Positions 18,019 to 56,077 of a stretch of DNA of 64,000 bases are shown piece after piece. The stretch's first letter is position 1; every line of letters begins with the position of its first letter. This DNA comes from Peptococcaceae bacterium BICA1-7 (GTDB lineage: Bacteria > Bacillota > Desulfotomaculia > Desulfotomaculales > Desulfocucumaceae). Made by a program: the position numbers and the translations under genes. The notes beneath the pieces are model-generated. The model did not search any database. It saw nothing but the letters and a program-made list of their open reading frames with translations, and was not told where the DNA came from. The DNA is taken from contig JUEB01000015.1 of NCBI GenBank assembly GCA_000802095.1, positions 1 to 64,000 on the forward strand, in the 5' to 3' direction.

Positions 18019-18154
18019 CTGCATGCGCCGCCCCGGTAATGGCAGGGGGAATTACCCGGGTGAGGTATATTTTGCTGTTGACAGCACAACCTGGCTGTGC
18101 TATCTTATCTTTAATCTGATAGTGCGTTTCAAAGCTGAAACAAAAGGCGAGGCA

Positions 18155-18187
18155 GCCTGCCGGTTTAAATACCGGCAGGCTTTTTTG
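18155..18187 (+). terminator. Terminator upstream of the nif promoter
   Basis: GCCTGCCGGT (18155-18164) pairs with ACCGGCAGGC (18171-18180), followed by TTTTTTGTT. It ends transcription from the exonuclease side about 20 bases before the nif -35 box. Confidence 0.85.
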
Positions 18188-18207
18188 TTAAATGCATAAG
18201 CCCGGTA

Positions 18208-18236
18208 TTGACAAATATATGTTCCAGGTATATACT
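18208..18236 (+). promoter_or_regulatory. Sigma-A promoter of the nif operon
   Basis: Consensus TTGACA (18208-18213), a 17-base spacer and TATACT (18231-18236). No -24/-12 sigma-54 promoter is visible here, so nif is not read by the NifA/sigma-54 route at this site. Transcription would begin near 18243, leaving a leader of about 265 bases before nifH. Confidence 0.85.
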
Positions 18237-18242
18237 ATTTAT

Positions 18243-19327
<1,085 letters not shown>

Positions 19328-19683: not shown

Positions 19684-20064
19684 GTGAAGGAAATTATTGC
19701 CATAATACGCATGAACAAGGTTAATGAGACCAAAAAGGCCCTGGCCGACGCCGGTATCTGCAGTATGCACGCCATGAAGGTGATGGGCCGGGGGAAAATG
19801 AAGGTGGACTTCTCCCTGCTGGACGAGATTGGCCCCGGGGAGGAGATCGGGGGTATATTGGCCGACGGCCTGGCCAGCGGGAGCAGGCTTATCCCCAAAC
19901 GTATGCTGACCATACTTGTCCAGGATGGAGAGGTAAAAAATGTGGTGGATACCATAATAAAGGTGAACAGGCAGGGCAACAAGGGGGATGGCAGAATTTT
20001 TGTATCCCCGGTGACAGATGCCGCCAGGGTGAGGACAGGCGAGCGGGGAGAAGCTGCGCTGTGA
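19684..20064 (+). CDS. nifI2: Nitrogenase-specific PII protein NifI2
   Basis: 126 residues from a GTG with GGGGGTGG upstream. PII fold with a longer T-loop region than NifI1 (KVDFSLLDEIGPGEEIGGIL), as usual for NifI2, and the C-terminal GDGRIFVSPVTDAARVRTGE. Partner of NifI1 in ammonia switch-off of nitrogenase. Thirteen bases after nifI1 and 16 before nifD. Confidence 0.93.
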   Translation: MKEIIAIIRMNKVNETKKALADAGICSMHAMKVMGRGKMKVDFSLLDEIGPGEEIGGILADGLASGSRLIPKRMLTILVQDGEVKNVVDTIIKVNRQGNKGDGRIFVSPVTDAARVRTGERGEAAL

Positions 20065-20080: not shown

Positions 20081-21691
20081 GTGGCGGTAAACGAGAAAAA
20101 TTTTGATAAAATGCTTGACCAGTACCCCGCCAAGGTGAAGAGAAACCGTAAAAAACATATCATCATCAGGGATTCCTCCACGGCCGCCCAGGAGATAGAG
20201 GCCAATACCAGGACCATCCCGGGGGTGTTAACCAACCGGGGGTGTGCCTTTGCCGGGTGCAAGGGAGTGGTGCTGGGGCCTTTGCGGGATGTGGTGCACA
20301 TAGTGCACGGCCCCATCGGGTGCGCCTATTACAGCTGGCTGACCCGGAGGAATAAGGCCAGGTCGGACGATCCGGGAAAAAACTTTATGACCTACTGTGT
20401 CTCCACCGACATGCAGGAGAGCGATATAGTGTTCGGCGGGGAGAAAAAGCTGGCCAGGACCATAGATGAGGTAATGGAGATATTCAGTCCCGAGGCCATA
20501 ACCATTTCGGCCACCTGCCCGGTGGGGCTTATCGGGGATGATATACAGCAAGTGGCCCGGGAGGCCCGCAAAAGGCACGGCATCAATGTAATGTCCTTCA
20601 GCTGCGAGGGCTACAAGGGAGTGAGCCAGTCCGCCGGGCACCATATAGCCAACAACGGGCTTATGGAATGGGTTATTGGCCAGGGAACAACAGAAGATCC
20701 CCCGGGTCAGTTCGCCATCAATATGCTGGGTGAATACAATATTGGCGGTGACAGCTGGGAAGTGGAAAGGGTATTAAAGGAAATTGGCTATACCGTGGTT
20801 TCGGTAATGACCGGAGACGGGTCCTACGAGGAGCTGAAAAATGCCCACGTGTCCCAGTTGAATCTGGTGCAGTGCCACCGGTCCATCAATTATATAGCTG
20901 AGATGCTGGAGAAGAAATACGGCACCCCCTGGCTGAAGGTCAACTTTATAGGCATACAGTCTACAGCAGAGTCCCTTCGTAACATGGCCCTTTACTTTGG
21001 CGATGAGGGCCTCATCCAAAGGACCGAGGAGGTCATCGCCAGGGAACTGGCCAGGATAGAGCCGGCACTGGAAAAGTATAAAAAAATTTGCGACGGGAAA
21101 ACCGCCTTCTGCTTTGTGGGGGGGTCCCGGGGCCATCACTACCAGGGTCTTTACCAGGAACTGGGCATTGAAACGCTGCTGGCCGGCTACGAGTTTGCCC
21201 ACCGGGATGACTATGAGGGCAGGGATATACTGCCCCACGTAAAGACTGACGCAGACAGCAAAAACATACCGGACCTGCAGGTAGTTCCCGATAAAAAACG
21301 CTTCAGGCTGAAAATACCAGAGGAAAGGATGGCCCAGCTGCAGGAAAAAATACCCCTGAGCAATTACCAGGGGATGATCAGCGACATGAAGGACGGCAGC
21401 ATTATAGTGGACGATCTCAATCACTTTGAAACAGAGGAGTTTGTGAGGCTTTTAAAGCCCGATATATTCTCATCAGGCATCAAGGACAAATATATAGTCC
21501 AGAAGATGGGCATTCCCTCCAAGCAGCTGCACAACTACGACTACAGCGGTCCTTACGCGGGGTTTAACGGCGCGGTGAATTTTGCCCGGGACATAAGCAT
21601 GAGCTTTGTGTCTCCCACCTGGAATTTTATAGAGCCGCCGTGGAAAAATATCCCGCTTCTGGAGGGGACCATCGGGGAAGGGGAGTCATAA
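20081..21691 (+). CDS. nifD: Nitrogenase molybdenum-iron protein alpha chain
   Basis: 536 residues from GTG with AAGGAGGAG upstream. P-cluster cysteines sit in NRGCAFAGCKG, HGPIGCAYYSW and ATCPVGLIGDD; the FeMo-cofactor region shows VQCHRSINYI (Cys ligand) and LHNYDYSGPYAGF (His ligand), and SQSAGHH keeps the substrate-channel His. GGSRGHHYQG replaces the more usual GGSRPRH. The length is about 40-60 residues more than Azotobacter-type chains and agrees with the Clostridia form carrying an insertion. It ends two bases before nifK. Confidence 0.96.
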   Translation: MAVNEKNFDKMLDQYPAKVKRNRKKHIIIRDSSTAAQEIEANTRTIPGVLTNRGCAFAGCKGVVLGPLRDVVHIVHGPIGCAYYSWLTRRNKARSDDPGKNFMTYCVSTDMQESDIVFGGEKKLARTIDEVMEIFSPEAITISATCPVGLIGDDIQQVAREARKRHGINVMSFSCEGYKGVSQSAGHHIANNGLMEWVIGQGTTEDPPGQFAINMLGEYNIGGDSWEVERVLKEIGYTVVSVMTGDGSYEELKNAHVSQLNLVQCHRSINYIAEMLEKKYGTPWLKVNFIGIQSTAESLRNMALYFGDEGLIQRTEEVIARELARIEPALEKYKKICDGKTAFCFVGGSRGHHYQGLYQELGIETLLAGYEFAHRDDYEGRDILPHVKTDADSKNIPDLQVVPDKKRFRLKIPEERMAQLQEKIPLSNYQGMISDMKDGSIIVDDLNHFETEEFVRLLKPDIFSSGIKDKYIVQKMGIPSKQLHNYDYSGPYAGFNGAVNFARDISMSFVSPTWNFIEPPWKNIPLLEGTIGEGES

Positions 21692-53351: not shown

Positions 53352-53927
53352 ATGTCTTTATCATATGCCATTCTGGGGCTATTAAGCTACCGTCCTATGA
53401 CAGGATACAGCCTCAAGGAGGTTTTTGACAATTCCATAAGCCACTTCTGGCACGCACATCTTAGTCAGATTTACCGGGAGCTGTCCAGAATGGAGGAAAA
53501 CGGGCTGGTGGCATCGGAAGTCCAGCGGCGGGAGGGAAGGCCTGACAGAAAAGTCTATCACATAACCTCCCGGGGTGAGGAGAACTTGCAGTCCTGGCTG
53601 GTGTCCTTTCCGCAAAAACTGGTCATGAGCTATAATGATGAGTTTCTTCTCAGGCTGTACTTCGGTGGCAGAATCGGACGGGATGAGATACTTTTTCAGA
53701 TGACCAAGTACAGAAAGGAAACAGAGTCCCGGCTGAATCATTTCCAGTCCCTCTACGGGATCATTGAGGAATTTTCCAAAAAGGCCGGTGGTCCAGGTGA
53801 CAGGCTATACTGGGAGCTCACCCTGGACCTGGGAGTCCGGCTGCTCAGGGCAAACCTGGAGTGGACAGAGAAAGCCCTTGATAAAATAAGATCCGGAGAT
53901 GAATCACAGATCAAGCCGCAGGGCTAG
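53352..53927 (+). CDS. PadR family regulator, AphA/Vir C-terminal type
   Basis: 191 residues. Winged helix (LGLLSYRPMTGYSLKEVFD, IYRELSRMEENGLVASE) plus helical arm; clearly related to the PadR protein at 14922. There is no strong ribosome site before the ATG, so expression may be low or the start different. Its position after the OYE-type gene suggests it regulates that gene. Confidence 0.86.
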   Translation: MSLSYAILGLLSYRPMTGYSLKEVFDNSISHFWHAHLSQIYRELSRMEENGLVASEVQRREGRPDRKVYHITSRGEENLQSWLVSFPQKLVMSYNDEFLLRLYFGGRIGRDEILFQMTKYRKETESRLNHFQSLYGIIEEFSKKAGGPGDRLYWELTLDLGVRLLRANLEWTEKALDKIRSGDESQIKPQG

Positions 53928-53976
53928 AGGGTTGTCCGTAAAAATTGTTTTAATTAGTAAAACCATAAAAAAGTAC

Positions 53977-54005
53977 TTGATCTATTAAGGAAAATATATT
54001 ATATT
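53977..54005 (+). promoter_or_regulatory. Sigma-A promoter of amtB-glnK
   Basis: TTGATC (53977-53982), 17-base spacer, TATATT (54000-54005). The leader to amtB would be about 310 bases. Confidence 0.75.
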
Positions 54006-54054
54006 ACTGTTATCAGAAAGCAAATAATACTCACTGGTGAGTAAAGGGGCACTG

Positions 54055-54098
54055 AAGCCCGGCATCATATTAAAGTATGATGCCGGGCTTTTCTATTT
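54055..54098 (+). terminator. First terminator in the amtB leader
   Basis: AAGCCCGGCATCATA (54055-54069) pairs perfectly with TATGATGCCGGGCTT (54076-54090), followed by TTCTATTTAT. Confidence 0.88.
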
Positions 54099-54170
54099 AT
54101 TTATCTTTTTATTTTGTTTAGAAGTTATACTGTTAAGTAGGAAAATATATAATACGATGTGGTATTATCT

Positions 54171-54216
54171 GGCGAGGGTGCTAATTGTGTTGTAATAGCG
54201 CCCTCGCCATTTTTAT
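54171..54216 (+). terminator. Second terminator in the amtB leader
   Basis: GGCGAGGGTGCTA (54171-54183) pairs with TAGCGCCCTCGCC (54196-54208) with one G-U pair, followed by ATTTTTATT. Confidence 0.85.
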
Positions 54217-54323
54217 TGTAACATTTGCAAACTACTGTGCTTCTTGCCAGCCAGGCGCCGGCTTTGGGAGGAAATGCAGTGGAAAATAAAAATCCAAATA
54301 ATTGCTACCAAGGAGGAATTATT

Positions 54324-55724
54324 ATGTCACGTTTTGCGCTAAAAATGAAATTATTGTTTTTATTGTTGTTTGTCAGTATACCCGGCCTGGCATGGGCCGA
54401 TGACGGCGGGGGGTTGGACAGTGGAGACACCACCTTCATACTGATGTCCACCGCCCTGGTGATGCTGATGACCCCCGGCCTGGCCCTTTTTTACGGAGGG
54501 ATGGTCAGAAAGAAGAATGTATTGAGCACCATTATGCAGAGCTTTATCGTAATCGGGCTTATATCGGTGCAGTGGGTGCTGTTCGGCTATTCACTGGCCT
54601 TCGGCCCGGACCAGGGGCATCTGGTGGGGGCGCTTAGCTGGCTGGGGCTGAACGGAGTGGGCCAGGAGGCCAACGCCGACTACTCGGCTACCATACCACA
54701 CCTTTTATTCATGGCCTTTCAGCTTATGTTCGCCATCATAACAGCAGCCCTTATTACCGGATCAATAGCTGAGAGGATGCGCTTTCCTGCCTTTTTGGGA
54801 TTCATTCTGCTGTGGTCCACCTTTGTATATGACCCTCTGGCCCACTGGGTCTGGGGAGTGGATGGCTGGCTTAGAAATTTGGGCGCCCTGGACTTTGCCG
54901 GGGGCACCGTGGTGCACATAAGCTCAGGTGTATCCGGGCTGGTGGCCGCCCTTGTGCTGGGCAGGCGCAAGGGGTATGGCACCGAGGCCATGATACCGCA
55001 CCAGCTTCCCTTTACAGTGCTGGGGGCCGCCCTTTTGTGGTTCGGCTGGTTCGGGTTTAACGCCGGCAGCGCTCTGGCGGCCAACGGCCTGGCGGCCAGC
55101 GCCTTTGTAGTGACCAATACCTCGGCGGCCATGGCGGCACTGGCCTGGGTGTTCGCCGAGTGGCTGCACCACGGCAGGCCTACAGTACTGGGGGCCGCCA
55201 GCGGAGCAGTGGCAGGCCTTGTGGCCATAACCCCGGCGGCAGGATTTGTGACACCCATGTCCTCGCTGGCCATAGGACTGGTGGCCGGGGCAGTCTGCTA
55301 CCTGGCGGTAAGCGTGGTCAAGAGAAAGCTTGGCTACGACGATTCTCTTGATGCCTTTGGGGTACACGGCATAGGAGGTATTTGGGGGGCACTGGCCACC
55401 GGCATATTTGCCACCAAGTCTGTCAACGAGGCCGGGGCCGACGGGCTCCTATACGGAAACGCCGCCCAGTTGGGCACACAGGCTATTGGAGTGCTGGCCA
55501 CTGTAGCCTTTGCGGGAGCAGCCACCTTTGTCATACTGAAGCTGGTGTCAGTGGTTACCGCCCTAAGGGCTACTCCTGAGGAAGAGGAAATGGGACTGGA
55601 CCTTTCCCTGCACGGTGAGGACGCCTACCCGGATATTATGAGCGGCTCTATATTAAATAGTGTTTATTCACCCGGCCATGTTTCGGCCAGCTCAGTTATG
55701 AAGCCGGGCATGAGCCTGAAATAG
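54324..55724 (+). CDS. amtB: Ammonium transporter
   Basis: 466 residues from ATG 54324, with AAGGAGG upstream; it begins with a signal peptide (about 1-25, GLAWA) as in Amt proteins. Eleven membrane segments; conserved [21 protein letters not shown] (first pore His) and [13 protein letters not shown] (second pore His). It conducts ammonium into the cell and is gated by GlnK, encoded 14 bases downstream. The leader places it under antitermination control like nif. Confidence 0.96.
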
Positions 55725-55738
55725 AAAGGATTGGTAAT

Positions 55739-56077
55739 ATGAAAAAGATTGAATGCATTCTCCGGCCCGGAAAGCTGGAAGAAGTGAAAGAAGCCCTTAA
55801 TCAGTCCGGGGTGCACGGCATGACGGTTATGCAGGTGATGGGCTGCGGACTCCAAAAGGGCCGCAAGGAGGTATACAGGGGCACCGAGCTTACCATAAAC
55901 CTTCTGCCCAAGGTTAAAATTGAGATCATTGTAAAGGACAGCCAGGTGGAGGAGGTCATAGCCCTGATCAGACAGTCGGCCTTGACCGGTCAGATAGGAG
56001 ACGGCAAGATATTTGTCAGCTCTGTTGAAAATGCAGTTAGAATAAGAACAGGGGAAACAGGCGATGCTGCTCTATAA
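55739..56077 (+). CDS. glnK: PII nitrogen regulator (GlnK type)
   Basis: 112 residues, a typical PII trimer subunit with the C-terminal GQIGDGKIFVSSVENAVRIRTGE. In the T-loop Tyr46 is kept (EVYRGTEL) but position 51, the uridylylated/adenylylated Tyr of many PII proteins, is Leu. Control therefore likely rests on ATP/ADP and 2-oxoglutarate binding. Linked with amtB, whose channel it blocks in relatives. Confidence 0.94.
   Translation: MKKIECILRPGKLEEVKEALNQSGVHGMTVMQVMGCGLQKGRKEVYRGTELTINLLPKVKIEIIVKDSQVEEVIALIRQSALTGQIGDGKIFVSSVENAVRIRTGETGDAAL

Follow-up and report, generated by a model that had tools for sequence, protein, structure and literature searches.

Antitermination by ANTAR-domain proteins has already been connected with nitrogen genes. 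In the available text of Ramesh et al. (2012), ANTAR RNAs were predicted before genes for ammonium transporters, PII proteins, glutamate synthase, glutamine synthetase and nitrogenase (PMC3369931), and ANTAR RNAs before nitrogen genes are also described in PMC3369936. Several such RNAs may occur in one transcription unit, as in Desulfotomaculum acetoxidans, in which 13 were predicted in six units (PMC3369931). The published consensus has A at position 1 (A1) and G at position 4 (G4) of the loops (PMC3369931, PMC8164766). A1-to-U changes hurt the targets of EutV, and the induction was impaired when the Enterococcus faecalis eutP linker was cut to 3 bases, which is the length in module 1 described below (PMC3369931). 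The crystal structure of EutV with its RNA shows G4 stacked on Tyr164; A1 makes no specific contact and may serve against pseudotriloops (PMC8934654).

The window analyzed here is a stretch of 64,000 nucleotides from Peptococcaceae bacterium BICA1-7 (contig JUEB01000015.1, positions 1 to 64,000 of the forward strand), which carries an amtB-glnK operon. Since ANTAR RNAs before ammonium transporters were predicted in 2012, the leader of this operon is a well-supported further example of a known system. It very probably consists of two ANTAR-operated attenuators in series, in a regulon shared with nif, gltB, glnB-amt and glnA. The features of the amtB-glnK region are as follows.

53977..54005, + strand: sigma-A-like promoter TTGATC-17-TATATT, from a consensus scan
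54028..54043, + strand: module 1 hairpin P1, TACTC[ACTGGT]GAGTA, from sequence and scripted scan
54044-54046, + strand: module 1 linker AAG (3 nt), between P1 and P2
54047..54060, + strand: module 1 hairpin P2, GGGC[ACTGAA]GCCC, from sequence, scripted scan and model R1
54055..54090, + strand: module 1 terminator, 15-bp stem with arms 54055-54069 / 54076-54090, then a T-rich tract
54149..54168, + strand: module 2 hairpin P1', ATAATAC[GATGTG]GTATTAT, from scan and model R1, arranged as in the same-genus leader L020
54170..54183, + strand: module 2 hairpin P2', TGGC[GAGGGT]GCTA, from scan and model R1
54170..54217, + strand: module 2 terminator, arms 54170-54183 / 54196-54209, then TTTTTATT
54232..54282, + strand: GGCGCC apical-loop hairpin, located 3' of the second terminator and 5' of the amtB Shine-Dalgarno
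54324..55724, + strand: ammonium transporter gene amtB (PF00909, E 2.5e-139; TIGR00836)
55739..56077, + strand: PII protein gene glnK (PF00543)

An earlier note on this DNA had described a promoter, P1, AAG, P2 and a perfect 15-bp terminator sharing the 3' arm of P2, and this anatomy was correct base for base. The -35 and -10 letters are identical in the same-genus amt leader (L020). The 15-nt arms of the module 1 terminator are 100% complementary, and the 3' arm of P2 lies within the 5' one. Both loops (ACTGGT and ACTGAA) start with A, in agreement with the published A1. The fold of 54020-54093, with the terminator formed, exceeded its shuffles in stability by a wide margin (z -7.1), and folding without the 3' arm of the terminator yielded P1 and P2, the first and last loop bases of P1 being paired. 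Model R1, built from 22 modules (21 before amt and 1 before nif), scored module 1 at 30.0 bits over 54028-54059, a sequence that is among its seeds. When own-genome sequence was scanned, a dual-hexaloop module was found at 3 of 86 terminator-like sites, all three before amt or glnB.

The earlier note had seen a single leader. Module 1 stood as described, but the hairpin at 54170-54209 belongs to a second complete module at 54149-54217, which had been overlooked within the same interval and whose loops start with G. In each module, two neighboring hairpins with stems of 3 bp or more carry six-base loops with G4, and the P2 hairpin overlaps an intrinsic terminator. P1' and P2' are separated by a single C (1 nt, scanned with full-length stems). 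The arms of the module 2 terminator (14 nt) are 93% complementary and use the 3' arm of P2', and its fold had a z of -6.25. The score of module 2 with model R1 was 33.6 bits over 54151-54182, again among the seeds. A at loop position 1 is absent from module 2 (GATGTG, GAGGGT); because G takes its place, this module is outside the strict published ANTAR RNA consensus.

Both modules are present in a genome of the same genus (G002), the Amt of which is 94% identical, and P1', P2' and the overlapping terminator were kept in each of the two amt leaders examined from the genus. In G006, which belongs to another genus of the same family, the first loop pair is GTTGTT/GTTGTT (scan) and the second is AATGTT/AATGGT (by eye). 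A 16-nt direct repeat, 94% identical, links 53988-54003 in the -10 region of the promoter with 54139-54154 at the start of module 2, and is possibly the trace of a leader duplication. The near copy of the promoter region that AGGAAAATATATAATA forms at 54139-54154 raised the idea of a second promoter before module 2, which was dropped because the hairpin would presumably begin a few bases from its +1.

The recurrence of the arrangement was assessed in 30 amt loci of the order, drawn from 60 genomes searched (48 with a match). A scan for RNNGNN loops with an overlapping terminator gave 40 modules on the coding strand, some of them overlapping registers of one site, compared with none on the opposite strand and 1 in the reversed sequence. 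When the list was read by hand, a module was present in 22 of the 30 loci and lay at most 800 nt before amt in 20; for the other 10 loci, this relaxed scan yielded none over that distance. Among amt leaders from other groups, only 2 of 80 had a module. The scan was also run with no loop sequence imposed, and 44 pairs of six-base loops were obtained, versus 3 on the opposite strand (overlapping registers included). Loop lengths of 4, 5, 7 and 8 gave 19, 1, 6 and 10 pairs, respectively. Among the 44 pairs, position 4 was G in 36 P1 and 38 P2 loops, and a purine stood at position 1 in 39 P1 and 39 P2 loops.

The earlier note had called for a covariation check on homologous leaders, and the stems of P1 and P2 do covary. 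In an alignment of 22 modules, with rows chosen for their stems, 98.9% of the cells are paired and both sides vary in 7 of the 9 pairs; in 98 distinct modules aligned by the model, the values are 98.5% and 6 of 8. Because both alignments favor structure, what counts most is how varied the compensated pairs are, together with the slid controls. The clade stem consensus is GATAC/GTATC and GGC/GCC, and the P1-P2 linkers of the 98 modules are 2-12 nt long, mostly 3-7, with P1 counted as 5 bp. Loop identities were counted in matches to a model whose seeds all had a purine (R1) at position 1 and G4. Position 4 was G in 78 of 78 non-seed and in 98 of 98 distinct matches, although the model favors G. 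At position 1, A and G occurred in 59 and 19 P1 loops and in 60 and 18 P2 loops of the 78 distinct non-seed modules, and the joint identities (P1, P2) were AA in 50, GA in 10, AG in 9 and GG in 9. Thus, of the A1/G4 rule in the earlier note, G4 was kept in homologous leaders, but position 1 is A or G rather than strictly A, which suggests a corrected target consensus for the clade with a purine at loop position 1. This purine rule is compatible with the EutV-RNA structure, because G4, not A1, is contacted. In the accessible text of the literature checked, no statement of such a rule was found, and it could still be published elsewhere.

The clade-wide purine is the reason for which we hold that module 2 probably works like module 1. 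The alternative, that only module 1 is an ANTAR target and module 2 a plain or otherwise regulated terminator, is rather unlikely. It draws on the G that starts both module 2 loops and on the need for A1 in EutV targets, as the A-to-U changes indicate; yet G1 recurs in 19 P1 and 18 P2 loops of the 78 non-seed modules, A1 is free of specific contact in the crystal structure (PMC8934654), and P1', P2' and the overlapping terminator of module 2 are shared by both genus members examined.

It is very improbable that the attenuators are worked by an agent other than an ANTAR protein, such as a metabolite (glutamine riboswitch) or an antiterminator of the LicT/SacY or GlcT type. Genes for amt, PII and GS can likewise be preceded by glnA RNAs, which occur in tandem as well (PMC2864571, in its available part), but neither in the window nor in five other loci did any Rfam family score up to its gathering threshold. 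A permissive Rfam scan of the leader gave only matches far below the gathering scores (the best was RsaJ, 28 bits versus 100). Furthermore, the G4 dual hexaloop, the preference for six-base loops and the co-occurrence with ANTAR genes fit ANTAR RNAs specifically. Hardly credible, too, are plain terminators, the first of which would end the PadR-type gene upstream (53352-53927), with the second in reserve and the small hairpins arising by chance. The padR-like gene is indeed the near upstream neighbor on this strand, and each of the two hairpins has the qualities of a good terminator, but a promoter-like site separates padR from them. A dual hexaloop of the A1/G4 or R1/G4 type connected to a terminator was absent from all 5000 dinucleotide shuffles made of 53930-54323, let alone two R1/G4 pairs precisely overlapping two terminators. 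Within the order, the arrangement is found repeatedly before amt, but it hardly occurs before the amt of other groups.

The ANTAR reading of the leader was extended to the whole genome with model R1. On the 4.7-Mb own genome, the model gave 7 matches at E<=1, all before nitrogen genes, of which 3 were seeds and 4 non-seeds. They lie in the leaders of amtB-glnK (two sites), nif (18126 and 18320), gltB, glnB-amt on contig 5, and ANTAR2-glnA. The nif leader is in the window, its modules had likewise been overlooked in the earlier note, and it has the following features.

18126..18157, + strand: ANTAR module GTTTC[AAAGCT]GAAAC..AGGC[GAGGCA]GCCT with terminator, 33.3 bits, among the seeds
18256..18287, + strand: weaker module TAACC[AATGTT]GGTTA..TGC[GAAGGC]GCT with terminator by eye, 19.7 bits, non-seed
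18320..18350, + strand: module AATTC[GCTGCA]GAATT..GGC[AAGGGC]GCT with terminator by eye, 24.8 bits, non-seed
18509..19327, + strand: nifH, first gene 3' of the nif modules, from profile matches
19684-20064, + strand: PII-family gene, downstream of nifH
20081-21691, + strand: nifD, downstream of the PII-family gene

In the nif leader (18126-18465), the three modules in series are accompanied by a fourth hairpin seen by eye, GGGC[ATTGGC]GCCC, which overlaps a terminator-like stem, GCGCCCCGGTTTT/AAAAACTGGGGCGT, followed by a T-rich stretch (by eye). The second ammonium transporter operon of the genome, glnB-amt (contig 5, 43000-46500, L166), has an ANTAR module before glnB; between glnB and amt there is a single hexaloop with a terminator, GAGC[AAAGAC]GCTC. 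Together, these leaders make up a clean candidate regulon that would place ammonium uptake, nitrogen fixation and ammonium assimilation under one switch at the RNA level.

In the class, 113 genomes were searched; R1 matches at E<=0.01 were found in 74 and ANTAR genes in 99. The matches occurred in 72 of the 99 ANTAR-bearing genomes versus 2 of the 14 ANTAR-less ones (Fisher p 4e-5), and 27 of the 99 had no R1 match at E<=0.01. The next gene was classified for 29 of the 30 best-match loci (L136-L165), L162 being left out as a second copy of the G002 leader. It was Amt in 15, ANTAR in 4 (once followed by glnA), glutamine synthetase in 2 and NifH in 3, Amt being over-represented because the seeds were mostly amt leaders. 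Four loci had other next genes, for an ECF sigma factor (622 nt away), a family-less protein, a URO-D family protein and an FAD-dependent oxidoreductase, and one had no gene in reach. The best R1 match of the class (L136:1500-1760) resembles an amt leader in its module and GGCGCC hairpin, with no amt gene close behind; this leader is perhaps decayed or displaced.

The genome was also searched for the ANTAR-domain protein that the earlier reading implied, and two REC-ANTAR proteins were found (2 matches over the Pfam cut-off), both encoded beside glnA. Together with the recurrence of dual hexaloops with G4 and the covariation of the stems, these genes support the view of the leader as an ANTAR target. 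They flank a conserved cluster, ANTAR1 - glnA-like - gltS-like - gltBD - ANTAR2 - glnA - glnA, in which gltBD is present in only some relatives. By sequence, the nearest structures that have been solved are Rv1626 (1s8n) and 6wsh/6ww6. The latter we take to be the EutV of the crystal-structure paper; the structure tables name 6wsh only 'response regulator'. The EutV residues that contact RNA, Arg142, Lys149, Glu160 and Met172, match R, K, E and M in both ANTAR proteins, and the position of Tyr164 holds F in P0002 and Y in P0003. Near the ANTAR1 locus lies a serine-recombinase-like gene, judged by sequence (L018:1268-2962), which seems to overlap the end of the open frame 1049-1531 (L018), as in skin-like elements.

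The receiver residues are D, T and K in P0002 and D, V and K in P0003. The phospho-acceptor position of 20 related ANTAR proteins was D in 15 and E in 5. The five Glu-bearing REC-ANTARs (in L171, L178, L181 and L183) include one that also has Ser and one that has Arg at the receiver Lys; from their residues, the Glu-bearing proteins are possible pseudo-receivers, perhaps not driven by a kinase. A PAS-HisKA-HATPase kinase gene (L168:774-1949) is directly upstream of ANTAR1 in this genome, and also in G002 and G005, and its product is a candidate partner of ANTAR1. In G003, G004, G011 and G037, the tested neighbors of ANTAR1 were ATPases or a transposase-like gene, and in G001 a HAMP-type kinase was near it. 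The two-component system suggested by the earlier note thus has partial support: one ANTAR gene has a PAS kinase gene beside it, but other relatives are without it at that place and Glu replaces Asp in 5 of 20 related proteins.

The following mechanism is drawn from the leader anatomy and the work on EutV. Transcription from the promoter at 53977-54005 would run into two attenuators in series. By default, each intrinsic terminator would form, and RNA polymerase would be halted before amtB at one or both of them. A REC-ANTAR protein, probably activated under nitrogen limitation, would bind both hexaloops, P1 recruiting it and P2 holding it. P2 (and P2') would then stay folded, its 3' arm would be kept from the terminator, and read-through into amtB-glnK would follow. 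The same ANTAR proteins may control nif, gltB and glnB-amt as well as their own glnA operon, and two terminators in series should lower leakage. In this scheme, the binding, the antitermination, the pairing of each ANTAR protein with a module, the signal that is sensed and the direction in which the system responds are predictions. They build on what is established here: the RNA anatomy with its recurrence and covariation, the presence of ANTAR genes, and the leaders found to carry the element.

The amtB leader also carries the GGCGCC hairpin upstream of the Shine-Dalgarno, another feature overlooked in the earlier note, with an MFE of -22.6 and a z of -2.2, and 5 of 200 shuffles were as stable. 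GGCGCC was the commonest apical-loop 6-mer in the 260 nt before amt (13 of 30 leaders; the next non-overlapping 6-mer was in 6). The GGCGCC hairpins of other amt leaders of the order are similar in form and have unrelated stem sequences. A stricter test over 1.2 Mb on both strands gave 40 sites, many of which were in coding sequence or were opposite-strand duplicates; among the 40, those in leaders close before a long gene were mostly in amt leaders. Covariance model R2 of the hairpin had 15 matches at E<=1 over 69 loci, with its own seeds and near relatives at the top. In the own genome it had 2 matches at E<=5, neither in the window, so that the model is too weak to map the hairpin. Alignments A2 and A5 were left unused because the gaps had been placed at the ends and not in the loops. 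No Rfam match at gathering level was obtained for this hairpin, and a literature search by listing showed nothing on it in amt leaders. In the nif leader, GGCGCC overlaps a terminator-like arm (by eye). The hairpin was rejected as a third ANTAR P2, since its apical loops have 7-13 bases in most leaders and no terminator follows it in the window. We consider doubtful a composite gate, in which the A1/A1 and G1/G1 attenuators would be read by two ANTAR paralogs in an AND-type or graded manner, followed by an amt-specific action of the hairpin with the invariant GGCGCC loop, once antitermination has occurred, on translation or stability.

Compared with the RNAs in the available text of Ramesh et al. 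(2012), the two attenuators have the same dual hexaloop hairpins, the same overlap of P2 with an intrinsic terminator and the same association with nitrogen genes; they differ in that loop base 1 is A or G, and is not the same in the two modules of the leader, and in the clade stem consensus. The RNA anatomy is also like that of the E. faecalis EutV/eut leaders, and the REC-ANTAR proteins carry the corresponding R, K, E and M residues. However, the leaders here precede genes of nitrogen assimilation and fixation instead of ethanolamine use, and the drive by a kinase is putative. Moreover, the linker is 3 nt in module 1 versus 5-12 nt in E. faecalis eut, and Tyr164 of EutV is replaced by Phe in one ANTAR protein and kept as Tyr in the other. 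In Klebsiella nasF/NasR and Pseudomonas amiE/AmiR, nitrogen genes are under ANTAR-dependent antitermination (PMC3369931, available part), as is predicted for the present locus. The proteins found here combine the ANTAR domain with a receiver domain (REC) in one chain. To our knowledge, the sensory parts of NasR (Klebsiella) and AmiR (Pseudomonas) are not REC-kinase pairs.
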